NCBI GenBank assembly: GCA_028293625.1
Contig: JAQGOL010000030.1
Location: 1 to 64,000 of the forward strand
Reading direction: 5' to 3'
Origin: Chthoniobacteraceae bacterium
GTDB taxonomy: Bacteria > Verrucomicrobiota > Verrucomicrobiia > Chthoniobacterales > Chthoniobacteraceae
DNA length: 64,000 nt
Positions 7,001-47,517 of the stretch are shown here, one piece after another (the first letter of the stretch is position 1; each line of letters begins with the position of its first letter). The position numbers and the translations under genes were made by a program. Below the pieces are notes generated by a model. That model was given only the letters and a program-made list of their open reading frames with translations. It had not been told where the DNA came from and searched no databases.

Positions 7001-9946
7001 ATGCCGGTGGCGGTAAACACCGCGGGAGTGCTTTCCGGCAAAACGGTTGTCGGCGTGGCTGCGGGCGAGGAGCACAGTGTCGCTCAATGTTCAGACGGCA
7101 CGGTGGCGGCATGGGGAGCCAATGGAACCGGACAACTTGGCACCAATAACATACTAAACAGCAGCGTGCCTGTGGCGGTTGGCAGTAGTCTCCTTGTCGA
7201 CGGAGAACGCTACGGCGCGATATTCAGCGGCGGGATTGCCGATCACAATTTTGCCCTTATTACTTCACCGCTCACCCCGGTGGTACAGGGCCTGCCGCCC
7301 ACCAATCTGACCAGCGCTGGCGTGACCTTGAATGGAACCGTCAATCCTTACGGCAGCGCCACCACGGTATCCTTTGATTACGGCCCCAACACCAGCTACG
7401 GCAGCAGCCGCAGCGTGACGCTTTCGCCCAACAACAGCCTGGCCGTGCTGAATGTGAGTTCGAGCATTACCGGGCTCTCGTCCGGCGCCACCTATCATTA
7501 CCGGCTCACTGCCACCAATGCCTTTGAGACCAGAAGCACCGCCGATGACACTTTCACAATTGGCACCGATATCGACGCGACATTTTCTTCCGCCGCCGAT
7601 GTGTCGCTCACGGCTGGCAGTTTTTCAGCCCCGGGAGGCAGATTAAGCATCGCGCTGGCTTTTGCGCCGCCAAACGGCACGAACCTGATGGTGGTTAAGA
7701 ACACCGGCAGGGAGTTCATCAAAGGTAATTTCGACACCCTTGCGCACGGCGATGTCGTAACCCTGGCTTACAAGGGAATCAATTACCGGTTCATCGCCAA
7801 CTACTTTGGAGGTAACGGTAATGACTTCGTGCTTCAATGGGCCAACACCAAAGTTTTGGCATGGGGAGCCAACCTTTACGGGCAGATAGGGAACAACAAT
7901 ATGGTAAGGCAGGCTGCACCCGTCAGCGTCATGTCGACTGGCGCGCTCTCGGGCAGGTTGGTGGTTTCCGGGTCGACAGGCCTGAACCACAGCCTCGCAG
8001 CGTGTTCGGACGGGACACTGCTGGCGTGGGGCGAAAATCTTAGCGGCCAGCTGGGAATCAAATCCAACGTCATTAAGAGCATTGTACCTACGGAAGCATT
8101 TGCCACGGGCGCACTCTTGGGAAGGAAGGTCATCGCCGTGGCCGCCGGGGAACGGCACAGCCTCGCACTCTGTTCGGACGGCACCGTGGCAGCTTTTGGA
8201 TACAACGGATCCGGCCAGTTGGGCAGCGGCACCCAGAACAGCAGCTCTGCACCAGTAGCGGTATCAACCGCGGGCGTGCTCGCTGGCAAGACGGTCATCA
8301 CCGTGGCGGCCGGCACTTCCCATAGTCTGGCACTCTGCTCGGACGGCACCGTCGCGGCTTGGGGCCTTAACGGTTCAGGCCAGTTGGGCAACGGCCTCAC
8401 CAGCAACAGCAATATACCGGTGGCAGTAAGCGTCGCAGGCGTGCTAACTGGCAAGATCGTGATTGCCGTGGCGGCAGGCACTTCCCATAGCCTGGCACTC
8501 TGCTCGGACGGCACCGTTGCGGCTTGGGGCCTTAACAGTTCAGGCCAGTTGGGCAATGGACTTACAAGCAACAGCAATATACCGGTGAGAATCTCCACCG
8601 CCGGTGTTCTCTCCGGCAAGACGGCCACCGCCATGGCGGCGGGTACTGCTCACAGTTTGGCACTCTGCTCGGACGGCACAGTTGCCGCTTGGGGCCTTAA
8701 TAACTTGGGGCAGCTGGGCAACGGCCTCACCGGCAACAGCAATATACCGGTGAGAGTCTCCACCGCCGGCATTCTCTCCGGCAAGACGGTCACCGCCATG
8801 GCGGCGGGTACCGCTCACAGTCTGGCACTCTGCTCAGATGGCACCCTCGCCGCCTGGGGTCTTAATAGCTCAGGGCAGCTGGGTGACAACACCACGGTGC
8901 AAAGCCTGGTGCCGATAGCTGCGAAGGCCCCCTCCTCCGTCGACGAACGTTATATCGCGCTCTTTAGCGGCCCCCTCGCAATCCACAATCTTGCGGTCAG
9001 TGCCATACCGCCCAGTCCCGTGAGCATCACCCTTCCAGTAACAAATCTGACCGGCGGCAGCGTGAGCTTAAACGGCACAGCCAATGCCGCGAGCGGCAGC
9101 GCCACGGTCTCCTTTGACTATGGCTTGACCACCGCGTACGGCGGCACTATCGCGGCGCTCCCCTCCCCCGTGACCGGCTCCACCGAAACCACGGTAAGCG
9201 CCGACCTGCCCGGCCTTCCGGCAAACACGACTTTTCACTACCGCCTGAGTGTTACTACTGCCGGCGGCACCAGCAATGGCATGGATATGACCTTCACCAC
9301 CTCCGGGCTCAACGCCCCCATCGGCGGAACGGTGACGCTGACACCCGCTATAAACGCGGGCGGAACGCTCTCAGTGGTCTTTGCCAACTGGACAAGCCCG
9401 GACATGCCACTCACCTTCTCATTACTGATTGATGATGTCGTTGCCTCTGCCACAGGAGAATCCGCTTCACGCGAAATCATTGCCCCGGTGAGTGCGGGCA
9501 CACACATTTTGAAAGCCCGTATTTACGCGGCACACGGTGTCTTTACCGAAGTGACAAAAAATTTCACAGTAGACACAGCGCAGGAGAGCTGGCGGGCGTT
9601 TCACTTTGGGTCCACCCAGAACGCGGGTAACGCCGCGGATCTGGCCGATCCCGATGGGGATGGAATAAGCAACCTCGTGGAGTATGTCGCGGGCTTGGTC
9701 CCGACAAGCGCGGCCTCACGCTTCAATGTGCGAGTGGAGAGAGTCAATGGACAGCCGGCCATTATCTTCGGCCCGGTAATCCCGGGACGCACCTACAGAG
9801 TCAAATATAAGGCGGCTCTCGCCGACGCAACATGGACGCCTCTGACCACGAGTTCAGCAAGCGACAATGGAACCGAGCGCACCATCATTGATGTTTCCCC
9901 CGGAGGCGGAGCACGCTTTTACACCATCGAGATTACCCTACCTTAA
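4070..9946 (+). CDS. Giant secreted protein with three seven-repeat RCC1 propellers
   Basis: The 1958-residue protein has a signal peptide (about 1-24). It contains three modules, each made of a beta-rich domain of about 90 residues ending in a YYGGTGNDLVL-type motif (YFGGNGNDFVL in the third) and seven RCC1 repeats of about 55 residues (core LALCSDGTVAAWG ... GQLG). An Fn3-like domain with a FHYRL/YHYRL motif follows each module. Propellers sit at about 115-500, 690-1065 and 1255-1640. A further Ig-like region spans about 1740-1835, and the C-terminus carries DPDGDGISNLVEYVAG, a calcium-binding-like repeat common at the ends of verrucomicrobial secreted proteins. Seven repeats per module predicts three complete seven-bladed beta-propellers. 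Such proteins are probably surface or extracellular binding scaffolds; no catalytic motif is seen. It heads a co-oriented run of exported proteins. Confidence 0.88.
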   Translation: MRPVFLFLLLLVLSFAGVHPCQAALAVTYNSTSDVPVTANGFSAQGETFSATLNFAPPAGTTLTVIRNTGLGFINGTFVNLAQGETVMLTHAGINYRFVANYYGGTGNDLVLVWAQTRPVSWGYNRDGQLGDNSTTDRSVPVNIFSTGLFAGRTIVAMAAGGSHSLALCADGTLAAWGAGSSGQLGVTSTGSRILPSAVNDSGVLAGRQVISIAAGGFQSLALCSDGKVAAWGRDLGNGSQESSDIPVAVDTTGVLAGKTVVAVAAGYVNSAVLCSDGTLAAWGFNSDGRLGDGTTTTHLSPVALNTGALGGKTVTAVSLGNAHGVALCADGTVVCWGSNDAGQLGNNGPSDISLPVAVNMTGVLAGKTVVAVSAGSGHNLALCSDGTVAAWGYNLGGQLGNNSIVNSQVPVAVDKTGVLAGKTVIAISAGASHSLALCADGTLAAWGYGIAGSLGNGSWGGSLVPVAVSRPLLAGDARYTAAFSASQAYHNLALAATQPLPVVANAAATNLARNSATLNGTVNPSGNSTTAQFEFGLTKSYGSKRSVTLSPGDGLTPQLVSANLGGLTPGTIYHYRLTATNAFGIAVGTDGTFATSISVAATYLSASTIPVTAGSFSAAGEIFSATLNFAPATGTNLTVVKKTGAGFINGTFGNLAQGQLIALSYNGISYPFIANYYGGTGNDLVLQWARNRVAGWGSNQTRQVGDNSFTNRLVPVDVLATGVLAGKTVVSSAAGHSHSVALCSDGTVAIWGNTNPVPVALSPIGALAGKTVVAIAAGETHSLALCSDGTVAAWGSNIFGELGNQSTVESTVPVAVNTAGVLSGKTAVAIAAGRGYSLALCSDGTIVGWGANFFGQLGTDSTIGSTVPLAVYTGSVLAGKTVVALAAGYDHTLALCSDGTVAAWGKNDSGQLGNNNLYDTPVPVEVQATGALSGKTVIAVSAGRFHSLALCQGGTVVAWGANYYGELGNNSTTFSWMPVAVNTAGVLSGKTVVGVAAGEEHSVAQCSDGTVAAWGANGTGQLGTNNILNSSVPVAVGSSLLVDGERYGAIFSGGIADHNFALITSPLTPVVQGLPPTNLTSAGVTLNGTVNPYGSATTVSFDYGPNTSYGSSRSVTLSPNNSLAVLNVSSSITGLSSGATYHYRLTATNAFETRSTADDTFTIGTDIDATFSSAADVSLTAGSFSAPGGRLSIALAFAPPNGTNLMVVKNTGREFIKGNFDTLAHGDVVTLAYKGINYRFIANYFGGNGNDFVLQWANTKVLAWGANLYGQIGNNNMVRQAAPVSVMSTGALSGRLVVSGSTGLNHSLAACSDGTLLAWGENLSGQLGIKSNVIKSIVPTEAFATGALLGRKVIAVAAGERHSLALCSDGTVAAFGYNGSGQLGSGTQNSSSAPVAVSTAGVLAGKTVITVAAGTSHSLALCSDGTVAAWGLNGSGQLGNGLTSNSNIPVAVSVAGVLTGKIVIAVAAGTSHSLALCSDGTVAAWGLNSSGQLGNGLTSNSNIPVRISTAGVLSGKTATAMAAGTAHSLALCSDGTVAAWGLNNLGQLGNGLTGNSNIPVRVSTAGILSGKTVTAMAAGTAHSLALCSDGTLAAWGLNSSGQLGDNTTVQSLVPIAAKAPSSVDERYIALFSGPLAIHNLAVSAIPPSPVSITLPVTNLTGGSVSLNGTANAASGSATVSFDYGLTTAYGGTIAALPSPVTGSTETTVSADLPGLPANTTFHYRLSVTTAGGTSNGMDMTFTTSGLNAPIGGTVTLTPAINAGGTLSVVFANWTSPDMPLTFSLLIDDVVASATGESASREIIAPVSAGTHILKARIYAAHGVFTEVTKNFTVDTAQESWRAFHFGSTQNAGNAADLADPDGDGISNLVEYVAGLVPTSAASRFNVRVERVNGQPAIIFGPVIPGRTYRVKYKAALADATWTPLTTSSASDNGTERTIIDVSPGGGARFYTIEITLP
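8284..8890 (+). repeat. Near-identical 165-base tandem units inside the RCC1 gene
   Basis: The motif CTCTGCTC recurs at 8333, 8498, 8663 and 8828, exactly 165 bases (55 codons, one RCC1 repeat) apart, within highly similar flanking DNA. The similarity at base level is higher than between other repeats of the gene, which points to recent duplication or gene conversion. Confidence 0.8.
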
Positions 9947-12986: not shown

Positions 12987-13780
12987 AAGCCGAATATTAA
13001 CTTCTCCTCTTTAACGGGCCGCCGAAGATAAATCTCTGCAGGTTCACTCCGGAAGTTCATATAGGCTCCGTTTTGCTTGTCGGTTTTTTCGGGTCGCCTA
13101 TCCGCACGCTCCTGCGCACCTGCTCCTGAAGACGCCGTACCACCGAGAAAAGCCGCTCGGCTGTGATTGGCGAAAGGGTCCCATTCAGGATGGCATCGTC
13201 ACGATCTGAAGCAGGTCGTTGCAAATCTGTCCCACCGCGCGTTTGCTTGGGATATGATCCGCCGAGCGCTCATTCAACTCACCAAACCATGACTCCAGCA
13301 GCTCGGGGCGATGCCAGTTGGTAGCTTATTCATAGAGCGCGAAGCGATGTTGCTTCACGATCAGTCGGTTGAAGCCCGGTTATTCCACGGCATTCTGGCT
13401 AACAGCAGCCCCATGCCGCACCAGTCGGTGGCCGCGGCCTTTGATTCAGACCGGCTAAAGGCGCCTGGCCTGTCGTCACGAATCCCCGGATTGCGCCGTG
13501 AAAACGGGATTTTCCCAGAAAATCGCGCGGCACCCATGCAAACGCGGGCATTTTCGGTCCGGCAGGGGAAAAAACGGCGCTCTGAGGGGCAAACCAAGGG
13601 AAAAGGTTTCCGCCGATTTCCGGCCGGCCATCATCAAATGTCCGTTTTTTTCTTTGCCTCTACGGATTTAAGCGATTCTTCAACTAGCGCTACCGGCCAG
13701 TAATGCATTTAGATGCCAATGGTTTTCAGCTCAGTTGATCGAGACGCATGTTTCGACATGATGTCATTCCCCCCCAACCT
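12987..13780. other. Intergenic region before the LamG/CotH gene
   Basis: 794 bases. The left half holds the apparent gene relic at 13057-13380. The right half (about 13500-13660) is rich in short A/T runs alternating with GC cores, for example the palindrome GGGATTTTCCC, in the same style as the cluster at 22391-22592. No intact gene is supported. Confidence 0.45.
13057..13380 (-). pseudogene. Relic of an unidentified gene with a stop and a frameshift
   Basis: On the minus strand one frame reads VKQHRFALYE, then a TAA at 13328-13326, then continues ATNWHRPELLESWFGELNER ... AVGQICNDLLQIV. At about 13199-13201 a one-base loss moves the reading to a second frame giving DDAILNGTLSPITAERLFSV and VRRLQEQVRR, closing at a TGA at 13059-13057. 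Both halves have coding character and join naturally across the shift. I cannot name the family. It may instead be chance; confidence is modest. Confidence 0.35.
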
Positions 13781-16700
13781 ATGATTCGCACATTTTTGTC
13801 AGCCCTCCTGCTCTGCTTCGCGCCGGTCGCTTTCGCTGGCACAGCCGCCTACAATAATACCGTCCTCGCTGATTCACCGATTGCTTTCTGGCCGTTTGAC
13901 GAAACAACCGGCACAACGGCAGTGGATATATCCGGTATATCGCAAAACGGTGTGTATGAAAGCTGCACGCTGGGAGTGGCGAGCGGTTATGCAAATCTTG
14001 GGACCTGCGTGCAGTTCTCCGGCATCCCCTCCCGGGTGCGGATCCCCTTTGATGCCGCGTTCAACCTGGGGACAGGCGATTTTGCCGTCGAGCTTTGGTA
14101 TCGCACCGCCTCGATGACGCGTGGGGATCTTTTTAGTTACAGGGCAAACGGCGTCGATTTTGGGATCATGTCCAATCGGACGGGAGCGGCGGTTGTGAAT
14201 GGCAACCACACCGTTGCACTGCCGTCGGCTTCCGCCGCCGTCAATACCTGGCACCATGTCGTTTATACAAGGTCGGCGGGCGTCATTTCGTTGTACGTGG
14301 ATGGAGTCTTTGCTGCTTCAGCGGCGGATACGGCCTCCATGTCGGCCAGCACGGCAATCTATGTCGGCGCGAATATCAACACGCGCTATTTCGTCGGTCT
14401 GATTGATGAGGTGGCCTACTACGGCACGGCATTGAGCGCGGCGCGGGTTTCCGCCCATTATCAAGCCGCCCAGACAAACCCCAATGCGCCGGTCGCCACG
14501 GCGGACGGCCCCTACAACGGCACGGAGGAGACCACGCTTACGGTCAATGCGCCCGGGCTGCTGGCCAATGACACGGACCCGCAGGGACAGGCGATCACGG
14601 CAAGCCTTGTTACACAGTCTACCAACGGCGTTGCGACGGTGAATGCCAACGGTTCGTTCTCGTTTGTTCCGGCAGCGAATTTTGCGGGCACGACAACCTT
14701 CACCTACCGGGTCAGCGATGGCACGAACGCCTCCCCGCCCGCGACGGTGACGCTGACTTTCGCCAATGCACCGGACAATCCCGTGGCCGCGAGCGACACC
14801 TATACGGCAGTGCGAAACACGCCGCTTGTCATCTCGGCCGTGGCGAGCGGCACGGCGACGGAAGATCTCCTGCCACTCTCTACGACCGGTTGGCATTACT
14901 ACAACTCGCTGCTGCTGGCCGATCGTAATCTCGGCACCGCATGGAGGCAGCCGGGCTATGCGGAATCAGCCGACTGGGCGATTGGCAGCACCGAACTCGG
15001 TTATGGCGATGGGGACGAGGCGGACGGGGTGAGTATTGCCGATAATCCAACAGTGGGTTACGACGCATCAGCTTCTGACCGGTTCGCCACGTACTATTTT
15101 CGCCGTGAGTTTCAGGTTCCCGACCTCGCCACGGTCACCGATGCGGAAGTAACACTGCTCTATGACGATGCCGGCGTTGTGTTCCTCAATGGCGCGGAAG
15201 TCGCCCGTACCAGCAATCTGCCCACTTCGGATGTGACGCCGGATTTGCCGTGGGACTACTTTCAGGCCAGTGGCACCTCTGAAAATACGACTGCCACGTT
15301 TGCCATCCCGGTGTCGAACCTTGTTTCCGGCTCGAATCTCGTCGCTTCGGAGATTCATCAGGCCACCGCCACTTCCACCGACGTTAGCTTCAACCTGCGG
15401 ATTCGGATCACGCGCGCGATACAAGGGGGGGTTCTTTTCAACGATACCGACCCTGACCTCGGCAGCACACTCACCGTGGCGAGCCATGGACAGCCTGCGC
15501 ATGGCGCGGTGACGGTGAATGCCAACGGCACATTCACCTACACCCCGGCCAATGGCTATGTTGGCACTGATTCCTTTAGTTATCTTGTAAAGGATGAAAC
15601 CGGGCGCACCGCCACGGGCACGGCGAACATCACCGTCGGCACCGGGCCTGATGTCGCGCCCGTGGCGAACGCCGACAGTTACAATGCCACGGAGGACCAG
15701 ATCCTGACTGTCCCGGCGGCAACGGGTGTGCTGGCAAATGACACCGATGCGGAGTCGGATCCTTTCACGGCAGTGATCGCCACGAATCCTTCGAAAGGGA
15801 CCGTGAACCTGGCCAGCAACGGCTCGTTCATCTATACGCCGAATGCGGATGTCAACGGCACGGATTCATTTACCTACACAGCCTACGACGCCAAAAATTC
15901 GCCTCCGGCCACGGTCACAATAAACATCGCCGCGGTAAACGACGCACCGGTCGCGGCGGCGGACGCTTATGTGGCAAATCCAGGGCAGACGATCACGATC
16001 AGCGCGCCGGGAATTTTGGCAAATGACGCTGATGTCGACACATCCGCCGCAAACCTCACGGCGGTGCTGAACACCGCGGTTACTGGCGGATCGCTCACGC
16101 TGAACGCCAATGGCGGTTTTAATTACACGGCTCCCGCCGCGCGCGGCACCTACACATTTTCCTATCGGGCAAACGATGGAGCGCTGAACTCCGTGCCGGC
16201 CACCGTGACGATCGTAGTCAATGGCGCGCCGACTGCGGGCGCGGATTCTTATACGCTGGTCGAGGAGAACACCCTGACCGTGAATGCCCCCGGTCTGCTC
16301 GGCAACGACAGCGATCCCGAGAGCCAGCCATTGACTGCGCAACTTGTCAGTCAGCCCGCGTCCGGATCAGTGGCTTTGAATGCCAACGGTTCCTTTACTT
16401 ATACGCCGGCGGCTAACTTCGCAGGCCCGGTCTCTTTTACTTACAAGGCACTGGATGGCGTGCGTGAATCGGCCCCGGCAACGGTCACGATCACCGTCTC
16501 CAATGTGAATGATGCTCCCGTTGCGTCCAACAACAGCTATAACGTGCTCATTGACTCCCCGCTTGCCGTCCCTGCGCCCGGGGTGCTTGGCAATGATTCG
16601 GACGCCGACGCCGGGACGACTCTGACGGCGGCGATGGTTTCCGGCGTTGCCCACGGCGTGCTGAGCCTGAGTGCAAACGGAGCGTTCACCTATACGCCGG

Positions 16701-19700
16701 CGCCTGGCTACACGGGCCCTGATGGTTTCACTTACCGGGTTTCCGATGGCCAGCTCTTCTCGAATACCGCCACGGTGACTATCCTCGTAAGTCAACCAGT
16801 GCGGGACGTGAAGATTTCCGAAATCATGTTCCGTCCGGCGCCCGCTTTCCCCGAGCCGGAATCGGAAGAGTGGATTGAACTCCAAAATACCGAGCCAGTC
16901 TTTGCTGATCTTGGCGGCTGGTCGCTGACTGACGGCATCAGTTTTACCTTCCCTGCCGGCACCACCATTCCCGCCAACGGACGCCTGGTCGTCGTGGCAA
17001 ACGTGGCGGCTTTCAAGGCGAAATATCCCGGCGTGACAAATGTCGCCGGCCCGTGGACCGGGACCCTCGCCAACAATGGCGAGAAAATCACGCTCAGCGA
17101 TGCGGCCGGCGGCACGGTCGACTCCATCGAATACGCCAGCCAGGGCGACTGGGGTGAGCGCTACATCGAGACGACATTCAACGGCTGGGACTGGCGCAGT
17201 CTGGCCGATGGCGGCGGACGATCGCTGGAACTGCGCAACTTCTCCGTCGACAGCGATAACGGGCAGAACTGGGGTCCATCCAGCGTTGCCAACGGAACCC
17301 CGGGTGCGGCGAACTCCATCGCTCTCTCGCAGTCGGCCCCGCTCATTTCCAAGGTGCGGCACACTCCTGCAATCCCCACGTCCGCGGACTCGATCACGAT
17401 CTCCTGCGAACTGAAAGACGAGTCCGCCGCCGTCTATCTGGCGGCCACGCTCTTCTGGCGTGATGCCACGACCACCACGCCCGGCGCGTGGAATTCGCTA
17501 CCAATGACCGGCGATGGGCAGGGTCATTTTTTCGCCCGCATCGCGCCGCGTGCCGATAAGAGCATCGCCGAGTTCTACATCTCCGCAACGGACGGCTCCC
17601 TCACCCGCACCTGGCCCGCGCCCGGCATTCTCGCCAACGACACGCCCTCGCAGACGGCGAACTGCCAGTTCCAGGTCGACAATGAAGCCCGCACCGGGAC
17701 CGACACCTATTACCGCCTCACGCTTACCGCGGCGGAAAACAACGCGTTTAATACCGTCAGCTCCGGCAGTGACCGGGAATTTAACCAGACGCTGATCGTC
17801 ACCCGCGGCACCGAGACTGAAATCCACTACCGCGCCGGGATGCGCATCCGCGGCAACAGCAGCCGGAGCTATCAATTCCGTCCGTTGCGCATCACGGCGC
17901 CGAACGACGATCCGCTTTCCGACGGCTCCGTGAAGTTTAATCTCAATCCCAAGGCGGCGCCGCTGCAGTATCTGGGCCAGCGCACCATGCAGGTCATGGG
18001 GCTTGCCGCCAGCGATGCGATTCCGGTGGAAGTGCGGCGCAACGGCGTGGAATTTACCACCTCGACCGGCAGTACGCCGGACTATGGCAAATGGACTCGC
18101 GTTGAGGCGGAAGACGGAGCGTTTGTCAGCAATCACTTCAGCAGCAGCGATGGCGGGAATCTCTATAAGAAAATCGATAACGGTCTTCAGACAAACTACT
18201 ACTGGCGTAGCGCGGGATACATCGAGCCGACCACTCCTGACAGTTCGCTGGATGGCTGGTCAAAATCCAATAACAGCTCCGCGAACGACTGGAGCGACCT
18301 GACCCATTTCTTTAGCGTTTGGCAGACGGCGGCCGCTCCCCACTTCCCGGCGGCTCCCGCCACCGATGTCTCCCAGAGCACAGGCGGAAGGCTAACCGGC
18401 AGCGGGGCATGGAACAGCACCGCTTTCGGCGCGGCAGAGATGGACTCGATCTCCACCGTCGTCGATCTCGATTACTGGGCCCGCTGGTTTGCCGTCATGA
18501 CGATCCTTCAGTCGATTGAAACCAATCTCTCCAACGGAGTGGATGACGATTACTCCGCTTACTTCCTGCCCGGCACCGATGGCCTGCGCCGGATGATTCC
18601 CGTCGCTCACGATCTGGATACTATATTGGGCCTTGGGGATTCTGCGGCGGCCGCGAATGGGCGCGGTCTCTACGATATGTGCGATAACGGCGAGACCTTT
18701 CGCTCGCTGCTGCCGCTCTTTGGCAACAACACCAGTGCCGGCAACGCCGCCTTCAGGACGCTTTACCATCAGAAGCTGCGCGAGGCATACGGCGGCTCGT
18801 TGAATGCCAGCACCACGGATAATCCCAACCCGCCCTTCTACCAGTTTGTGGACAAGCACCTCGCCGGCTGGGTGCCCGCCACGGTGATAAACAACATTAA
18901 ATCCTTTGCCACTCAGCGCCAAGCCTACCTGCTGGGTCTGATTGGCAGCGGAGCCATCACCCCGCCCGCGGCCACTTCCGCGGCTGCGCTCAACACCGCG
19001 CACGGCAGCGTCATGATCTCCGAGATTATCGCAAACAATGTCGCCGCGGTAAATGTCGGCGGCACATTCCCGGACATCATTGAACTGTATAACTCGGGCG
19101 CCACCGCCGCCGATATCAGCGGGCGCAGCATCACTGACGACCCCGCGCAGCCCTTGAAGTTCGTCTTCCCAGCCGGCACGACCATTGCCGCCGGCGGCTA
19201 TCTTGTGCTCTATGCCGACGGCCTCACGACACCAGGACACCTGCCGTTTTCTCTGAATAACTCCGGCGAGAACGTCACGCTTTACAATTCCATTTCCAAT
19301 GGCGGCGGAGTGCTCGATTCCATCAGCTTTGGCCTGCAAATTCCCAACCTCTCCATCGGACGCACGGGAGCCACGCTGCAAACATGGACCCTCACGACGC
19401 CCACTTTTGGCGCCGCCAATGCAGCCGTCACTTCGTTCAGCCCTCCCGGCGGCCTCTTCATCAACGAGTGGCTCGCCAACACTGATTTCCGCGTCTCAAG
19501 CGATTTCGCGGAAATTTACAACCCGGGCACCAATCCAGTCGCCATCGGAGGCATGAGTTTTTCCGATGATGTGCTCAATGCGCCGGCCCGTTTTGTTCTC
19601 CCGCCATTAAGCTTCCTGCCCGCAAGTTCCTTCACGCGCTTTGATTTCATCGGCACGGATGCCACACCCGGCAACGCGACGGAAGTCTCGTTCCGGCTCG

Positions 19701-20986
19701 GCGCGACGTTTGGCAATCTCGCGCTCATCGGCCAAAACAGCACCGTGGTCGATATCGTGGACCTCGTTTCCCAGCCGCCCGACGCCTCCAGCGGCCGCAG
19801 CACCGACGGCGGTTCCACCATCGTGACATTCGCGCCACCCGCCTCGCTGGCAACACCCGGGGCATCAAATACCACGCCGCCCGCCAATATCCTCAACCTC
19901 ATCAACAGCCTGCGGATCACCGAAATCCATTTCAATCCCCCCAGCGGCAACGCGTATGAATTCATAGAACTCACGAACAACGGCGCAACCGCGCTTGACC
20001 TGCTCGGGGTGCGTTTTGTTGAAGGGATTGATTTTGTCTTTCCCGCCTATTCACTGGCACCGGGAGCTTACGTCATCGTCGCACGCGATCCGTCAAAGTA
20101 TCCCACGTTGCCCGTCGTCGGTCCTTACTCCGGCGCTCTCGACAATTCCGGGGAAACCATCGGACTCATGCTTCCGGCCCCGCGGGATACTTACATCCAA
20201 CGCTTCACCTACAAGGATAGTTGGGAAGCAGCCGCGGACGGCGGCGGCAGCTCGCTGCAATTCTTCCAGACTTCAACCTACGCCGGAAACTGGAATGATG
20301 GCGCGTATTGGCAATCCGCAGCTCCAACAGCCGGCGCCGGAATTCCGTTTTCCCTTAGCGCCGGACTGGATCAGACCGTGTTATTGCCCGGTTACGCGCC
20401 GTTCAATGGAACCCTTTCCCCTGGCTCCGCGAGCAATATCGCGCTGACATGGAGCAAGTTCAGCGGTCCCGGCACAGTTACCTTCACCAACACCACCGAG
20501 GCCGACTCCAGTGCCAACTTCAGCCAGGCAGGCATCTACACCCTGCGGCTAACTTCAACCAGCAGTGCGGGCACCGCCACGGATGACGTCGAGGTAATCG
20601 TGCAGGATACTTACAGCACCTGGTCCAGCCGTCTACTCACCGGCCAAAGCGCCGCCAATCAAATCCCGGCCGCTGATCCCGACAAGGATGGCGTCTCCAA
20701 TGCCATTGAGTTCGTTCTCGGCACAAATCCGCTCGCGTTCTCGACCTTGGGTCAGATTACCACGGCCAACGGCCACTTTGGGCTCAGCTGCACTTTCAGC
20801 AAACTGATCGACCCGGCCGTAAAAGTATTTGGCGAACTCTCCAGTGACCTGACCAATTGGATTGGCAATGCCGATCTCCTTCTAAGTGGCGAAACCGAAA
20901 CCTCCTCCCAGTGGCTCATACAGGACCCCGAACTCCCAGGCACTCATTCCACGCGCTTTTTGCGGCTAAAGGTCGTTTTTCCTTAG
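13781..20986 (+). CDS. Giant secreted LamG / cadherin-like / lamin-tail / CotH protein
   Basis: The start at 13781 gives a clean signal peptide (MIRTFLSALLLCF...AFAG); an upstream ATG at 13748 would add 11 residues with no signal character. Counting from 13748, domains are: LamG (about 30-245); tandem cadherin/VCBS-like repeats with GLLANDTDP/GVLANDTD motifs (about 246-1014); lamin-tail domain (about 1019-1180); CotH kinase-like domain (about 1318-1718) with IPVAHDLDTILGLG; three more lamin-tail domains (about 1753-1887, 1898-2037, 2053-2194); PKD-like domain (about 2198-2285); and a C-terminus with DPDKDGVSNAIEFVLG. A beta-sandwich domain of about 185 residues interrupts the second cadherin-like repeat. 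It is likely an adhesin or cell-surface protein with an embedded CotH domain; substrate unknown. No Shine-Dalgarno motif is present. Confidence 0.88.
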   Translation: MIRTFLSALLLCFAPVAFAGTAAYNNTVLADSPIAFWPFDETTGTTAVDISGISQNGVYESCTLGVASGYANLGTCVQFSGIPSRVRIPFDAAFNLGTGDFAVELWYRTASMTRGDLFSYRANGVDFGIMSNRTGAAVVNGNHTVALPSASAAVNTWHHVVYTRSAGVISLYVDGVFAASAADTASMSASTAIYVGANINTRYFVGLIDEVAYYGTALSAARVSAHYQAAQTNPNAPVATADGPYNGTEETTLTVNAPGLLANDTDPQGQAITASLVTQSTNGVATVNANGSFSFVPAANFAGTTTFTYRVSDGTNASPPATVTLTFANAPDNPVAASDTYTAVRNTPLVISAVASGTATEDLLPLSTTGWHYYNSLLLADRNLGTAWRQPGYAESADWAIGSTELGYGDGDEADGVSIADNPTVGYDASASDRFATYYFRREFQVPDLATVTDAEVTLLYDDAGVVFLNGAEVARTSNLPTSDVTPDLPWDYFQASGTSENTTATFAIPVSNLVSGSNLVASEIHQATATSTDVSFNLRIRITRAIQGGVLFNDTDPDLGSTLTVASHGQPAHGAVTVNANGTFTYTPANGYVGTDSFSYLVKDETGRTATGTANITVGTGPDVAPVANADSYNATEDQILTVPAATGVLANDTDAESDPFTAVIATNPSKGTVNLASNGSFIYTPNADVNGTDSFTYTAYDAKNSPPATVTINIAAVNDAPVAAADAYVANPGQTITISAPGILANDADVDTSAANLTAVLNTAVTGGSLTLNANGGFNYTAPAARGTYTFSYRANDGALNSVPATVTIVVNGAPTAGADSYTLVEENTLTVNAPGLLGNDSDPESQPLTAQLVSQPASGSVALNANGSFTYTPAANFAGPVSFTYKALDGVRESAPATVTITVSNVNDAPVASNNSYNVLIDSPLAVPAPGVLGNDSDADAGTTLTAAMVSGVAHGVLSLSANGAFTYTPAPGYTGPDGFTYRVSDGQLFSNTATVTILVSQPVRDVKISEIMFRPAPAFPEPESEEWIELQNTEPVFADLGGWSLTDGISFTFPAGTTIPANGRLVVVANVAAFKAKYPGVTNVAGPWTGTLANNGEKITLSDAAGGTVDSIEYASQGDWGERYIETTFNGWDWRSLADGGGRSLELRNFSVDSDNGQNWGPSSVANGTPGAANSIALSQSAPLISKVRHTPAIPTSADSITISCELKDESAAVYLAATLFWRDATTTTPGAWNSLPMTGDGQGHFFARIAPRADKSIAEFYISATDGSLTRTWPAPGILANDTPSQTANCQFQVDNEARTGTDTYYRLTLTAAENNAFNTVSSGSDREFNQTLIVTRGTETEIHYRAGMRIRGNSSRSYQFRPLRITAPNDDPLSDGSVKFNLNPKAAPLQYLGQRTMQVMGLAASDAIPVEVRRNGVEFTTSTGSTPDYGKWTRVEAEDGAFVSNHFSSSDGGNLYKKIDNGLQTNYYWRSAGYIEPTTPDSSLDGWSKSNNSSANDWSDLTHFFSVWQTAAAPHFPAAPATDVSQSTGGRLTGSGAWNSTAFGAAEMDSISTVVDLDYWARWFAVMTILQSIETNLSNGVDDDYSAYFLPGTDGLRRMIPVAHDLDTILGLGDSAAAANGRGLYDMCDNGETFRSLLPLFGNNTSAGNAAFRTLYHQKLREAYGGSLNASTTDNPNPPFYQFVDKHLAGWVPATVINNIKSFATQRQAYLLGLIGSGAITPPAATSAAALNTAHGSVMISEIIANNVAAVNVGGTFPDIIELYNSGATAADISGRSITDDPAQPLKFVFPAGTTIAAGGYLVLYADGLTTPGHLPFSLNNSGENVTLYNSISNGGGVLDSISFGLQIPNLSIGRTGATLQTWTLTTPTFGAANAAVTSFSPPGGLFINEWLANTDFRVSSDFAEIYNPGTNPVAIGGMSFSDDVLNAPARFVLPPLSFLPASSFTRFDFIGTDATPGNATEVSFRLGATFGNLALIGQNSTVVDIVDLVSQPPDASSGRSTDGGSTIVTFAPPASLATPGASNTTPPANILNLINSLRITEIHFNPPSGNAYEFIELTNNGATALDLLGVRFVEGIDFVFPAYSLAPGAYVIVARDPSKYPTLPVVGPYSGALDNSGETIGLMLPAPRDTYIQRFTYKDSWEAAADGGGSSLQFFQTSTYAGNWNDGAYWQSAAPTAGAGIPFSLSAGLDQTVLLPGYAPFNGTLSPGSASNIALTWSKFSGPGTVTFTNTTEADSSANFSQAGIYTLRLTSTSSAGTATDDVEVIVQDTYSTWSSRLLTGQSAANQIPAADPDKDGVSNAIEFVLGTNPLAFSTLGQITTANGHFGLSCTFSKLIDPAVKVFGELSSDLTNWIGNADLLLSGETETSSQWLIQDPELPGTHSTRFLRLKVVFP

Positions 20987-31983: not shown

Positions 31984-32023
31984 AAGGAGGGACAGGGCTT
32001 TACGCCTTGTCCCTCCTTTTTTT
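31984..32023 (+). terminator. Rho-independent terminator after the MFS gene
   Basis: A stem AAGGAGGGACAGGG pairs with CCTTGTCCCTCCTT (one G-T pair) around a seven-base loop and runs into seven T residues. It lies 25 bases after the MFS stop codon. Confidence 0.9.
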
Positions 32024-32088: not shown

Positions 32089-33159
32089 TTACCCTTTCAC
32101 CGGGAACCACTTCTGGGTCAGGTCATCGAAGAACCCTTCCTCCCGCAACTTAAGGAGCGCCTCGTTGATTTCCTTGCGGAACGGGCTCCCCTCGGGAAGC
32201 GCGAAACCGTAGTCGTGCTTGGCGAAACGTTCGCCGGCCAAATCGAGCCTGGAGCCGGGATGCTCGCTCAGATAGTAGCGCAGGATAGGTTCATCGTAAA
32301 CCACGGCATCCAGATCCCCGGCTTCGAGCTGGGCGCAGGCTTCGTCAATCTGCGTAAAACCGACCGGTTTGATCCCGCGTTCATTGAGAAAATCGGCGGA
32401 TGAACTACCGGTCACGGTGCCTACTTTGCGGCCCGCGAGCTGTTTCCATTCGCGCACATCGCCGGCAATGGCCCTGGCGGTCATGATGGAGGCCATCTTC
32501 GCGGTGACAAATGAGACCAGGCCGATGCCGGCAAGCATCCATACAATTGCAAACAGGCGTCCGGCCACTCCAACGGGCGTTTTGTTTTCACAGCCACCGG
32601 TAATCAGCGTGCAGACACTCCACCACGCCGCCTCCCAGACGCCTCTGACGTAAGCCGCCGGAAACGAATCCGGATTTTTACGGCGCTCAACAAACCAGAG
32701 GAGATGCGCATTGGCCAGTAATGCAAGCAATAGCACGCCGATAACCTTCAGTGCATCCTTTGCCACGTCTTTATAAAGGACAAAATTGAATCCGTTTCCA
32801 TTCCGTGCAACGAGAATTTGCAAGCCGCTTTCATAGATGGGATGGCTGAAATCGATCACCGTTTCCCGCTCTGAAGTCATGCTAAGCGCGCCGACTCCGA
32901 TATCCGCTTGTTTGGATTGAAGGGCTTCAATGACTTCAGGCACTTTTGCCACCGTTTTAAACCGGAAGCGCCACTGCAAGTCCTGGGCGACCCGGTTCCA
33001 AAGATCGACGCTGTAGCCGGTCAGCTTTCCGTCCTTTTCCATGGCAAACGGTTTGGCGGGTTTTACATAGACCGTCAGTTCCTTGGGCAGTTCCTGCGCG
33101 GGCAAGGCGGAGCCGGCAAGGAGAAGGGCAATAGCGGAGAGAAACAAAGGTCGAATCAT
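32089..33159 (-). CDS. GluR0-like ligand-gated channel with an altered selectivity filter
   Basis: Start 33159 gives a signal peptide (MIRPLFLSAIALLLAG, ending PAQ) and 356 residues; a longer frame from 33261 adds 34. Lobe 1 of a periplasmic binding-protein fold (about 25-118, KPFAMEKDGKLTGYSVDLW, ADIGVGALSMTSERE) is followed by a helix, a pore region and a helix (about 140-225), then lobe 2 (AGRKVGTVTGSSSADFL, DAVVYDEPILRYYL). This is the glutamate-receptor layout with the channel inside the binding domain. The position where bacterial homologues carry the K+ filter TVGYGD reads TGGCEN at 187-192 (bases 32601-32584). It could conduct another ion or be a non-conducting sensor. It has no operon partner. 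Confidence 0.8.
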   Translation of the reverse strand: MIRPLFLSAIALLLAGSALPAQELPKELTVYVKPAKPFAMEKDGKLTGYSVDLWNRVAQDLQWRFRFKTVAKVPEVIEALQSKQADIGVGALSMTSERETVIDFSHPIYESGLQILVARNGNGFNFVLYKDVAKDALKVIGVLLLALLANAHLLWFVERRKNPDSFPAAYVRGVWEAAWWSVCTLITGGCENKTPVGVAGRLFAIVWMLAGIGLVSFVTAKMASIMTARAIAGDVREWKQLAGRKVGTVTGSSSADFLNERGIKPVGFTQIDEACAQLEAGDLDAVVYDEPILRYYLSEHPGSRLDLAGERFAKHDYGFALPEGSPFRKEINEALLKLREEGFFDDLTQKWFPVKG

Positions 33160-33349
33160 GATGGGGTGAAGATGACAAGGTGAGGAGAGGAGCAGAATGC
33201 CAAGGCATTTTTGAAGCGTTTTACTCTCCGGCGGGTGGCCTCCTTTCCCGCGCTTTGGCATCCCAATGGCCCTTTACAACAGAGCTTCCCTTTCCTAACT
33301 TCCCGCCGAATTTGCGGTTAACCACAAGAAGCATCGGAAGAACGAAATA

Positions 33350-43410: not shown

Positions 43411-46400
43411 CTAGTGAGGAGCGAATTGCTTGCTCGATACCACGCGGTAGCGGTAATAGCCATCCACCCGATCCTTCTTCTCATCGTAGCGGCTCAGGGT
43501 CTCATCGTTTGGATCGATGAACCGCTCGATCACGGATGAACCGCGGTACTCACCGAGCACCTGATCGCGTTTAGGATCGAACTCGTTGTCTTTCGAGCCG
43601 GGCGATTTGCGGATCGCCTGGCAACGCATGTGGACTGTATACACATTCGATTTCGTCGTCAGGCGAGGGTAGATATGCACATACGGCCGCTCGCGCATAT
43701 TGTCGCCGGTCTGGGCGTTGGCCGTCCAGAACGAGTTCCAGCTCGGCACATTGACTCCCTTTGGATAGAGATCCATTTCACAGACTTCCGAAGGCGAACG
43801 GAACAGAGTCGTCTGACGGCTCGATATATTGGTTCCCTGATCGTTGAGACGCGCTTCGAACTCTTCAATCGTCTTGTCGAGATCGAGCGGATACCGGAAA
43901 GTCAGCGAGGCGCTTGGATTATTAAGAGCATCCTCCGAATGACCAGCTTCCGACACCGCGGTTGGCACAGCCATCATGAAGGTCGACTTCAGAACTCCGC
44001 GCAATGCGGAATCCCGCCGCAGATAAGAACGGCCTTTATTGGTGCCTGGCAGGTTGCCCGAATCACCGGCCGCATAACCGAACGGCGCGATAACATAGTT
44101 CATGTTAACCTTGCCCGCCGTGGAGAACGGCTCGCTGATTGCGTAGGGCTCAACGACTGGAAGATGGAACAAATCCAGCATGAGATGATCGGGTGGCCCC
44201 TGTGAACCGGGATGGGTAAATGCGGCCTCGCGATCAGGACGGAAGAGGAGCGTTTGCCATGGCTTGTTCGCTTTCACACCGGTCGGGAGTGAACCGATCA
44301 TTGCAACCGAGGGCATCTGGCGGTTTGGCGTATAAAACGACTGGCCTGTATCCTCGATGTTACGTCCATGGAAGTAAGGCACCCGGTAGGAAGGCGTTCC
44401 GTTGGTTAACTCAAACCGGATATTGCCTTCATCCACCTTGTTGCCCATCGCTCCATCCATATGCTTGGAGATACCGCGATCCCAGTCTCCTGGACCGCCG
44501 TCGGCGCGTTCCACACCGGTGACATCTTTTGGAAGCATCGGCCGCTTGCTGTCACGATTGTTGCCGCCTCTGGCGAACACACCCGCGCCGGTATTGCCAG
44601 CTTGGATATCTCCGTGCGAGGAGGTCAGCCCATGGATAAGCCTGTTGGCACTGAAATAACCGGTCGTGGTGCTTGGGCCATCACGCATTTGATAGTATTC
44701 CGGCCCAATGACTGAACGAGCCATCCCGAGGCGAAGATCGCCACGTTTATTGCCCGCAAGAGGTCCTGTGAATTCAATGCTGCGAACCACATCCTGGGCT
44801 CCCCGCGCGTTGATGATATCGCGCGCTCCATCCAGGCTCCCGTCAAAGCGAAGCCCAAACGAAGCATCCTTGCCACTGGTTGGCAGCGGCATCGGCACCC
44901 TCACATCGGGGGCTGATGGGAAATCAAGGTGCACAGTCTGAACCAATACACTCCGCGTATCGGCAGGGCTTTCGCCGCTATAGATGTTCACCTTGAATGC
45001 AGGGCCGCTAAAGACAAGGTTCGTGTCAGTAGGATCGACCGGGAAAATATCGCTCACATAAGGATAATACTTCACGGTCTGATCCTTCACATACGAGGTG
45101 CTGCTCGCATTCTTATTATCGAATGTCTTGATGCCCACGGTCAGACTAAGATTTCTGGCGGTATCAAGCGCCGGATCCTGGGATAAATCCGTGTTCGTCA
45201 TTCCCTTGTTTTCCAGGAAGTAATGCATCGAAGCATGGAACCCGAGAACCGGCATAAAACCGCGTCCCTGGCTGATCTCGTGCGAAGGGAGATTACAAAT
45301 GTTAATCATCTTCGTTTTGCACATGTTGGCGTCTTTTGATCCCGCTTTCGCAAACTTAATAAGCATCGGCCGTTCTTCGATGACCTCTGTCCAATAGGTC
45401 TCCCGGATTGCCGGGAATCCCGCCATCGGGCTTGCCATCTCAAAGGCGAGAATCGCCTGGAGTCCAGCCGGAGTGGCAGCAACGCCGCCGGGCAGTGCCG
45501 GGCGATGAAAGATTAACGCCGCTTCGGAGATCATAAGAAAACGGCCCATGCCCGCCGTGGATGTATCCACGCCGACCGGTCCGATCTTCAGCGGGGTGAC
45601 CTGTCCCGACCAGTCGACCGAACGCGCAAGGCGCCCGTAGCCTTCCGTATAGCCGGTTTTGTAGAACCGGGGCGTATACGGATAAAACTTGTTGGCAGAC
45701 TTTGTCGCGGTGCCGGTATCCACCAGATTAACGCTGCGGCTGTAGTCGAAGATTTCAGTCAGGATCTGGTCACGATCAGGACCGTATTTTTTCAGGAAAC
45801 TGCCACCGAATCCCGGGACTTCGGCGATGTTGCCGCTGGTCACAGCCTGAAGGTAATCATACATGCTCTTGTTCTGGGGCACGAAATCCTTCACATCGCT
45901 CTTTGCATCCGAGCGGGTGAGGAAGAAGCGCTTGTCCTGAGCCGCGTTATTATCCGGGTTCTTATAGATCGTTGAGGAAAACGCAAACAGATCGTCGTAG
46001 TTGGTCCGTTTTTTGAAGTCCTCCGCGATTGGCCAAAGCGTGACACGCGGCCGGCCAAAGAGGTTGATATCAGGAGCGCGGCTGCTTGCGGTCAGAAAGA
46101 AGCGAACTTTCTCCAATGCCTTGGGCGTGATCTTGGCGCCCCCGGTCACGATTTCATTCTGGAGCGACTTGCCATTAGCTCCGCCCGTGGTGCGCTGCGA
46201 CTTGAAAATCATCTCATCCACATTCGCGTAGAGATGTTTTCTTGTGAGTGAAAGAATCGGCGCCACGTCCGAATTCTTATCCGCATTGAAGGTTCCGCCT
46301 TTGGTTGTTGTATCCTTGTATTTCTTGTCCGGATCGGCCCATGGCGTAAACGGAGTGATCTGATAGATCGCTTCCTTATACTTCACATACGCTGCCACCG

Positions 46401-47517
46401 AGGGATAAATATCGGTTGTCGGCTTGATTCCCCAGAGCCAGCCAAGCACGGGGCTCAATGAAGTGGTAAACGGATGGCCGGAATAACGTTGATACTCACC
46501 ACGGACAGGCTGAGTGGAGGCAAGCCCAAGGCTTTTCGCGCCAAACGTGTATTTGCCTGAACCATCGACATTGCCGCATTCCTGTTCATTGCTGACCGAA
46601 GGCGTATCCCAGAATGTCCCTTCCGAAGCGGTATTGATGTTGAGTTTTGAGCTCTCATCATCTGTCCAGAATGCGGTGCGCCCGACGATCGGGTTGCCCG
46701 CCGTTCCGCGATTGGCGCCGCCGATTGAACCGTCCTTCAGGACGTAGAGCCATTTGACAGGCATCGGAATATAAGGCACGGCCGCACCCGCCCCACCGTT
46801 TTCGTTCAATAACCGGAGCTTCGGATCCGTGCTGATTTTGGCGTCGAACCCGTCCACAATGCCTGGAGATGGCGAGTTGTTTTCGTTTTCCGAATCGGTG
46901 TATTTGGCACGCGGATCAATAATCGGGTAGTGAGGTTCAACAATTGCGCCTCCTTCACTAATGTCGGTCCGCTGGTCGAGGAACGGCTCGTTCATGTCGA
47001 CATATCCGGCAATCGGATTTGTCCTGTCCCACTTATTGATGACTTCCACTTCTGCGGGCAATTCAGACGATGTGTATTCGCCCGTCTTGGTCTTCAGTTT
47101 TTCAGCGGAGTATAGCCGATAAACATAATCCTCGGAGCCTGGATTATAGGGATAATATGAGGCATCCGAAACGGTCGATAACTTCAGGGTTGCTTTGGCA
47201 GTGGCAAGCTTGCCCGAGAAGGTTCGGATCGCGCCAGGTTGCGACGCCCACGTGGTGTTCTCCTGCGCGGGAGTCGTAGCCTCTCGGATCTGGCCGAGGA
47301 CCAGATTGACGGTGCTGTCGGCAATTTGCCGCGTGGTGGCAGAGTCGCTGCTTGCCTGCGTGGCGTTACGCTCGGTGGTCGCCGTCGTCATAAACGCGAC
47401 GAGAAGTCCGGAGAGCAATACAAGCATCGCGAGGACAATCACCAGTGCAATGCCCCGCCTGTTTCGAAGCGCGGATCGAAGTCCGCGAAGTTTCTGAAGG
47501 GGGAGAAACGTTTTCAT
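43411..47517 (-). CDS. Verru_Chthon cassette protein A
   Basis: The 1368-residue protein begins with a prepilin-like or PilX-like hydrophobic start (RGIALVIVLAMLVLLSGLLV, about 21-40) after a basic patch. The long remainder is soluble and lacks catalytic motifs I know. It contains FWTDDESSKLNINTASEG (typical of cassette protein A; similar to helix-hairpin minor-pilin segments), GVDTSTAGMGRFLMISEAA, and RPYVHIYPRLTTKSN towards the end. Family A is described in Verrucomicrobium and Chthoniobacter as part of a multi-gene cassette with proteins B, C and D. The genes B-C-A are consecutive here. Function is unknown; a pseudopilus-like surface apparatus is the usual speculation. No Shine-Dalgarno motif at the start. 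Confidence 0.85.
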   Translation of the reverse strand: MKTFLPLQKLRGLRSALRNRRGIALVIVLAMLVLLSGLLVAFMTTATTERNATQASSDSATTRQIADSTVNLVLGQIREATTPAQENTTWASQPGAIRTFSGKLATAKATLKLSTVSDASYYPYNPGSEDYVYRLYSAEKLKTKTGEYTSSELPAEVEVINKWDRTNPIAGYVDMNEPFLDQRTDISEGGAIVEPHYPIIDPRAKYTDSENENNSPSPGIVDGFDAKISTDPKLRLLNENGGAGAAVPYIPMPVKWLYVLKDGSIGGANRGTAGNPIVGRTAFWTDDESSKLNINTASEGTFWDTPSVSNEQECGNVDGSGKYTFGAKSLGLASTQPVRGEYQRYSGHPFTTSLSPVLGWLWGIKPTTDIYPSVAAYVKYKEAIYQITPFTPWADPDKKYKDTTTKGGTFNADKNSDVAPILSLTRKHLYANVDEMIFKSQRTTGGANGKSLQNEIVTGGAKITPKALEKVRFFLTASSRAPDINLFGRPRVTLWPIAEDFKKRTNYDDLFAFSSTIYKNPDNNAAQDKRFFLTRSDAKSDVKDFVPQNKSMYDYLQAVTSGNIAEVPGFGGSFLKKYGPDRDQILTEIFDYSRSVNLVDTGTATKSANKFYPYTPRFYKTGYTEGYGRLARSVDWSGQVTPLKIGPVGVDTSTAGMGRFLMISEAALIFHRPALPGGVAATPAGLQAILAFEMASPMAGFPAIRETYWTEVIEERPMLIKFAKAGSKDANMCKTKMINICNLPSHEISQGRGFMPVLGFHASMHYFLENKGMTNTDLSQDPALDTARNLSLTVGIKTFDNKNASSTSYVKDQTVKYYPYVSDIFPVDPTDTNLVFSGPAFKVNIYSGESPADTRSVLVQTVHLDFPSAPDVRVPMPLPTSGKDASFGLRFDGSLDGARDIINARGAQDVVRSIEFTGPLAGNKRGDLRLGMARSVIGPEYYQMRDGPSTTTGYFSANRLIHGLTSSHGDIQAGNTGAGVFARGGNNRDSKRPMLPKDVTGVERADGGPGDWDRGISKHMDGAMGNKVDEGNIRFELTNGTPSYRVPYFHGRNIEDTGQSFYTPNRQMPSVAMIGSLPTGVKANKPWQTLLFRPDREAAFTHPGSQGPPDHLMLDLFHLPVVEPYAISEPFSTAGKVNMNYVIAPFGYAAGDSGNLPGTNKGRSYLRRDSALRGVLKSTFMMAVPTAVSEAGHSEDALNNPSASLTFRYPLDLDKTIEEFEARLNDQGTNISSRQTTLFRSPSEVCEMDLYPKGVNVPSWNSFWTANAQTGDNMRERPYVHIYPRLTTKSNVYTVHMRCQAIRKSPGSKDNEFDPKRDQVLGEYRGSSVIERFIDPNDETLSRYDEKKDRVDGYYRYRVVSSKQFAPH

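Follow-up and report, generated by a model that had tools for sequence, protein, structure and literature searches.

The minus strand of the window (the whole 64,000-nucleotide stretch analysed here) encodes a 356-residue protein with the layout of the bacterial glutamate receptor GluR0 and, at the selectivity filter of its pore, the sequence TGGCEN. We propose that this protein probably works as a homotetramer: a cation channel of the bacterial glutamate-receptor type that an amino acid opens and whose filter is not K+-selective. Codons 187-192, at positions 32584-32601, read ACC GGT GGC TGT GAA AAC and align opposite TVGYGD of K+-type homologues, so that the K+ signature of Group 1/GluR0 proper is absent at the filter. 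The original prediction had placed TGGCEN here, with the conserved tyrosine and second glycine lost and with flanks like those of K+-selective receptors, and each of these points holds: the two lost residues are Cys190 and Glu191, Trp179-Trp180 precede the filter, and Lys193-Thr-Pro195 follow it.

We considered trivial explanations for this sequence. A proper filter elsewhere in the protein, raised in the original prediction as a point against it, was rejected, as no TVGYGD was found in the 356-residue translation. A sequencing error or frameshift was also rejected, as relatives carry related filters. The two closest relatives, L003 and L004, belong to the same family and are 56% and 53% identical to the window protein; because both read TLGCEN and the frame is open, an error is very unlikely. 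TGGCEN is also not a chance string, because homologous filters occupy the same positions in relatives.

Protein layout and predicted fold

The coding part of the gene spans 32092-33159, with an ATG at 33159 giving the 356-residue product; a longer ORF in the same frame begins at 33261 (Table 1). Pfam matches, all above cut-offs, are SBP_bac_3 (residues 29-353), Lig_chan (143-245, 42.2 bits) and Ion_trans_2 (173-227, 36.7 bits). Together with the predicted model and a fold search, they describe two SBP-type lobes split by a helix-pore-helix unit, the GluR0-like arrangement; the ligand-gated channel layout that had been predicted is thus borne out by both Pfam order and fold. A Pfam search of the 356-residue protein found no output domain other than the pore.

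Table 1. Features of the receptor-like gene (all on the minus strand) and the basis of each assignment.
Feature	Positions	Strand	Basis or remark
Bacterial ionotropic-receptor-like protein gene	32089..33159	-	356 aa plus stop
Signal-peptide-like N terminus, residues 1-22	33094..33159	-	By-eye reading; low pLDDT in residues 1-20
Binding lobe S1, residues 27-118, ligand Arg98	32806..33081	-	Pfam; phmmer to 2pyy; R98 conservation
M1 helix, residues 126-158	32686..32784	-	AlphaFold secondary structure
Pore helix, residues 170-187, contains Trp179-Trp180	32599..32652	-	AlphaFold model; alignment
Filter TGGCEN, residues 187-192	32584..32601	-	Translation; register from L064 and L003 versus GluA receptors
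M2 helix, residues 198-231, motif SFVTAKMAS	32467..32568	-	AlphaFold; L003 alignment
Binding lobe S2, residues 232-353, ligand Asp289	32101..32466	-	Pfam; phmmer; D289 conservation

Within the pore, T187 corresponds to the Q/R/N site of animal receptors and E191 to their acidic site, while N192 replaces Asp. The M2 motif is the counterpart, through alignment of L003, of the SYTANLAA gate motif named for iGluRs in PMC3483616. In the binding lobes, T95, R98 and D289 are each at least 90% conserved across 69 sequences, and the last two, in S1 and S2 respectively, correspond to the ligand residues described for bacterial GluR0-like receptors in PMC2950845. Judging from the signal-peptide-like start, the N terminus would be outside; we derive the membrane orientation from this start together with the GluR0 topology.

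An AlphaFold model of the monomer, built with 69 sequences, has a mean pLDDT of 90.4 and a pTM of 0.76, and shows the three membrane helices of Table 1, with the pore helix ending at T187. Foldseek comparisons with PDB structures gave 1472 matches at E ≤0.001; the best 50 (E 3.1e-25 to 1.7e-23) consist entirely of AMPA receptors, with TM-scores of 0.52-0.63 by query length and rmsd of about 6-12 Å. A fold match of this kind is what any GluR0-type protein should give, and it is silent on selectivity.

Among PDB sequences, the closest match is 2pyy (“Ionotropic glutamate receptor bacterial homologue”), which covers both lobes (E 6.6e-43) and which we take to be NpGluR0 of Nostoc; its 228-residue chain comprises the binding domain only, without a pore to compare. 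Further binding proteins come next, and then receptors of animals and plants, which align over approximately residues 76-356. With AMPA receptors (filter QQGCDI), the window protein shares the fold of the lobes and transmembrane core and, by the L003 and L064 alignments, a Gly and an acid at the same places. It differs from them in lacking an amino-terminal domain and the M4 helix (at 356 residues, its last helices belong to S2), in being one residue longer between filter and Pro, and in having Thr instead of Gln at the Q/R/N site.

GluR0 of Synechocystis (Chen 1999) has a K+ signature and K+ transport activity; its topology, opposite to that of K+ channels, was reported in 2026 in PMC13099474, where GluR0 was also assayed by complementation of K+-uptake-deficient E. 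coli. The window protein resembles GluR0 in its lobes, two transmembrane helices and ligand residues, and we assume the same inverse topology; it differs in that GluR0's Tyr-Gly-Asp is replaced by Cys-Glu-Asn. Bacterial receptors that lack a K+ filter have been on record since 2010: of 22 prokaryotic receptors sorted by Ger et al. (PMC2950845), 12 have such a filter and 10 do not (“Group 2”). The P regions of these 10 resembled no channel of known selectivity, and the authors suggested that Group 2 is nearer to eukaryotic receptors. Like Group 2, the window protein combines an S1-M1-P-M2-S2 topology and conserved ligand Arg and Asp with no recognisable K+ filter, and so fits that group by topology and filter. 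The difference lies in the filter motif G-G-x-[ED]-[NK], which is not mentioned in the available text of PMC2950845. The motif is not described in the available parts of the open-access literature searched, including also PMC6385376, PMC12226733, PMC3483616 and PMC12332018, and thus appears to be new to it; the same literature yielded no paper on NpGluR0, and no functional test of this protein or of any bacterial receptor without a K+ filter.

Filter classes among homologues

We aligned 189 homologous stretches and kept 127 distinct rows, leaving out 46 (shorter than 250 residues, or with fewer than 40 pore letters) and 16 identical copies. By motif, these rows comprise 75 K+-type, 16 GGxE, 11 ATQ-A[DE], 8 GK-[STA] (GKS) and 17 other filters. 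The GGxE label requires Gly-Gly-x-[DE] or LGCEN, so the presence of one of these motifs in all 16 rows is not evidence in itself, and seven of the eight GKS rows are true, with L150 having matched the label outside the filter. The window's phylum, Verrucomicrobiota, contributes 45 rows (30 K+-type, 7 GGxE, 7 GKS and 1 other). Its seven GGxE filters read TGGCEN (the window), TLGCEN (two rows) and VGGADN (four rows); these rows are 36-56% identical to the window protein, and all seven, which group together, have Gly at position 189, Asp or Glu at 191, and Asn at 192.

The other nine GGxE rows carry MGGF[ED][NK] (eight) or NGGFEE (L144). Record titles assign three of the eight to Hyphomicrobiales and one each to Alphaproteobacteria, Hyphomicrobiaceae, Thiotrichaceae, Desulfuromusa and Candidatus Pacebacteria; six of the eight come from records titled as Proteobacteria. 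The ATQ-A[DE] filter was found in 11 rows of the cyanobacterial sample. We also examined five plasmid homologues from 108 matched records: four from Alphaproteobacteria have a GK- or GR-type filter, and the fifth, from a cyanobacterium, has a shortened filter without GYG. In the four alphaproteobacterial cases (L229-L232, on plasmids of Roseibium, Paracoccus, Phyllobacterium and Chelatococcus) the GK/GR filter is followed by basic residues, with neither a K+ signature nor an acid.

We built two trees, both without the filter columns. A quick tree holds 118 of the 127 rows (omitting L148-L151 and L204-L206, which are very divergent, and the K+-type rows L072 and L163), and a second tree holds 59 (omitting 51 of the 75 K+-type rows, 15 of the 17 “other” rows, the GGxE row L144, and L150). 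The quick tree places the seven Verrucomicrobiota GGxE rows together with a support of 83. The original prediction had suggested an alignment to see whether TGGCEN forms a clade, and the window protein indeed forms one group with L003 and L004 in the 59-row tree (support 100/99). The VGGADN rows form another (100/100), and the window trio, VGGADN and GKS rows join in a cluster of 14 (88/90, under the 95 bootstrap mark). Apart from this cluster lie the MGGF[ED][NK] rows (100/99) and the ATQ rows (98/97). Non-K+ filters thus sit at several places on the trees, among whose rows the sequences of Ger et al. are not included, and the quick tree implies seven changes between K+ and non-K+ filters. 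On trees without an established root, each of these changes could be a loss or a gain. For one clade of the 15 GGxE rows in the tree, an AU test gave p 0.41; this fails to reject a single origin of all GG-x-E filters without demonstrating one, and we do not claim such an origin as shown.

Resemblance of the pore to K+ channels and animal receptors

Pore searches gave different pictures for different members of the GGxE class. For the window pore, three designed armadillo proteins came first, followed by KcsA (7.9e-7) and other K+ channels, with no glutamate receptor among the 60 listed of 190 matches; pairwise scores were 117 against KcsA and 79 against GluA3. For the pore of L003 (LGCEN), the 60 listed of 280 matches were all glutamate receptors, with GluA2 best (1.8e-7), and phmmer placed LGCEN opposite the AMPA receptor QGCD, with its Glu on the AMPA Asp. 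The pore of L064 (MGGFEN) matched plant GLR3.4 (3.8e-6) and GluA3 (8.2e-5) first, then Lmo2059 (9.2e-5), presumably a K+ channel, and phmmer aligned its Glu to the GluA3 Asp. AMPA receptors also came first for L034 (VGGADN; 5.7e-6), ahead of Kv1.3 (5.4e-4). The K+-type pore L036, in turn, gave a stronger GLR3.4 match (8.3e-11) than did each of the four GGxE pores tested, and it also matched K+ channels at 1.3e-9 and GluA3 at 6.5e-9.

Across the alignment, the AMPA score (the better of GluA2 and GluA3) exceeded the KcsA score in 14 of 16 GGxE, 10 of 11 ATQ, 7 of 8 GKS, 11 of 17 other and 6 of 75 K+-type rows, and the two GGxE rows with KcsA ahead were the window and L004. We rejected a comparison of Pfam Lig_chan with Ion_trans_2 as a test for an animal-like pore, as K+-type rows reach equal Lig_chan scores (two K+-type relatives score 64.5 and 72.5 bits, versus 42.2 for the window). 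The better alignment of KcsA than of AMPA receptors counts against a special link of the window pore to animal receptors. From the pore searches and pairwise scores, what the non-K+ classes share with animal receptors is therefore mostly the absent K+ signature, along with the Gly and the acid in GGxE; we make no claim that their filters and the animal one share an ancestor. PMC12226733 describes the “+4” acidic residue of animal receptors and gives GluR0 an equivalent Asp. In the window protein that GluR0 Asp would be Asn192, with the acid one place earlier at Glu191; this earlier place is the one that HMMER set opposite the animal acid for L064 and L003.

The K+-channel-like flanks of the window filter, the score of 117 against KcsA, and the retained first Thr and Gly189 would all suit a channel that still conducts mainly K+ through an unorthodox filter. 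K+ selectivity depends on the TVGYG backbone, however, and here the signature Tyr and second Gly are replaced by Cys and Glu, with an acid at the second-Gly position in all seven related Verrucomicrobiota rows. We therefore regard predominant K+ conduction as quite improbable.

Pore conservation, distribution and proposed function

We compared the 11 filter columns (187-197) with the lobes in 11 pairs of sequences. All 11 columns are identical in L003/L004 (lobes 72-79% identical), L034/L035 (69-77%) and L005/L006 (51-55%), and in 8 of the 11 pairs conservation of the filter equals or exceeds that of both lobes. The exceptions are L065/L066 and the window's own pairs with L003 and L004; in these two window pairs, identity over the filter stretch is 55% and does not surpass that of the lobes. 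For three pairs of relatives (the window has diverged too far for such a test), dN/dS of the pore helix and filter is 0.03-0.08, with dS >1 and synonymous sites saturated (dS exceeds 1 in 9 of the 12 cells of the selection table and is infinite in 2 of these). These low values indicate that the pore helix and filter are under purifying selection in the three pairs.

The original prediction had offered two readings: conduction of another ion, or a vestigial pore in a ligand sensor. The first is the better supported. The second, in which the pore is non-conducting and the membrane part a mere anchor for a ligand sensor or scavenger, could accommodate the weak conservation in the window's own pairs, the great diversity of relatives' filters, some of which lack an acid or most Gly residues (GKS, ATQ and unclassed), and the seven changes on the quick tree, as if constraint had shifted several times. 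We consider it unlikely: within subgroups, filter conservation usually matches or exceeds that of the lobes, the ligand-binding Arg and Asp persist, and the pore is the only output domain found; purifying selection in relatives also disfavours it. Neither is a partner in sight, because the window, L004 and L062 (a Chthoniobacter sp. MAG contig to part of which the L003 DNA is identical) do not share the same gene neighbours. For the same reason, we rejected a conserved operon.

Two genomes, G043 and G053, each hold one VGGADN copy and one TVGYGD copy, as might be expected if the non-K+ protein were a modifying subunit that needs a K+-type receptor in order to function. The window's genome (96.4% complete) argues otherwise: it yielded no second full-length match at E ≤0.001, and the sole other match at this threshold covers residues 21-122 only. 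We judge the subunit reading very improbable. A scan of genome contigs with the window protein alone gave 21 stretches, none of them a relative.

A match of some kind occurs in 40 of 57 relatives' genomes (own genome counted); among the matches listed, 15 span at least 280 of the 356 residues, and the others cover one lobe or the pore. Counting receptors of every filter type at E ≤1e-30, we found matches in 30 of 387 genomes of the phylum sample (alignment A1) and, with alignment A2, in 9 of 289 from the class of G437 (L064, record titled Hyphomicrobiales), 42 of 194 from that of G436 (L119, the cyanobacterium Mastigocoleus), 11 of 229 from that of G442 (L070, Thiotrichaceae), 10 of 148 from that of G443 (L068, Acidimicrobiales), and 9 of 148 from the phylum of G441 (L069, Desulfuromusa). 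One genome from the class of G437 has four receptor genes (L147 and L152-L154) in the same orientation within a 6-kb stretch (G581:C64:3960-9769), and GYGD is missing from all four filters. Separately, the K+-type receptors L171, L173 and L221-L226 lie within open frames of ~690-900 residues and are, because of this length, possibly fused to further domains.

Returning to a non-K+-selective cation channel, the reading we prefer, we infer for the window's receptor a tetrameric assembly, a ligand, a gating mode, an ion selectivity and a depolarising or Ca2+ signal. A periplasmic amino acid would close the two-lobed clamshell, with Arg98 gripping its carboxylate and Asp289 its amino group, and closure would pull on M1/M2 so that the M2 bundle opens. 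Na+, K+ and possibly Ca2+ would then pass a filter that keeps Gly189 and has Cys190 for Tyr, Glu191 for the second Gly and Asn192 for Asp. Four Glu191 side chains would form an acidic ring at the filter like that of the animal “+4” Asp, a site that we take to lie near the cytoplasmic mouth.

The question that this bears on is how the K+ filter proposed for a bacterial ancestor became the Na+/Ca2+-passing filter of animals and plants. With its Gly-Cys-Glu, a small two-helix bacterial receptor would allow this transition to be tested on a simple protein; it would also point to the use of amino-acid-evoked depolarisation or Ca2+ entry by some bacteria. More speculatively, and as a doubtful proposition at present, excitatory amino-acid receptors may exist in bacteria as an ancient class, tetrameric, Na+/Ca2+-passing and depolarising, whose G-G-x-[ED]-[NK] filters would be living intermediates between the GluR0 K+ type and the GCD filters of animal AMPA receptors.

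Scans of the window for tRNAs and Rfam families found none. Elsewhere in the window, a 1368-residue ORF on the minus strand (43411-47517) has no Pfam match at E ≤0.001. On the plus strand, a hairpin followed by a T run (31984-32023) lies directly after an MFS gene, and we read it by eye as an intrinsic terminator between two convergent genes. Two large proteins are also encoded: one of 1958 residues (4070-9946) with 17 RCC1 stretches by Pfam, and one of 2412 residues (13748-20986) in which Pfam identifies bacterial Ig/cadherin-like domains, three lamin-tail stretches and a weak CotH match.
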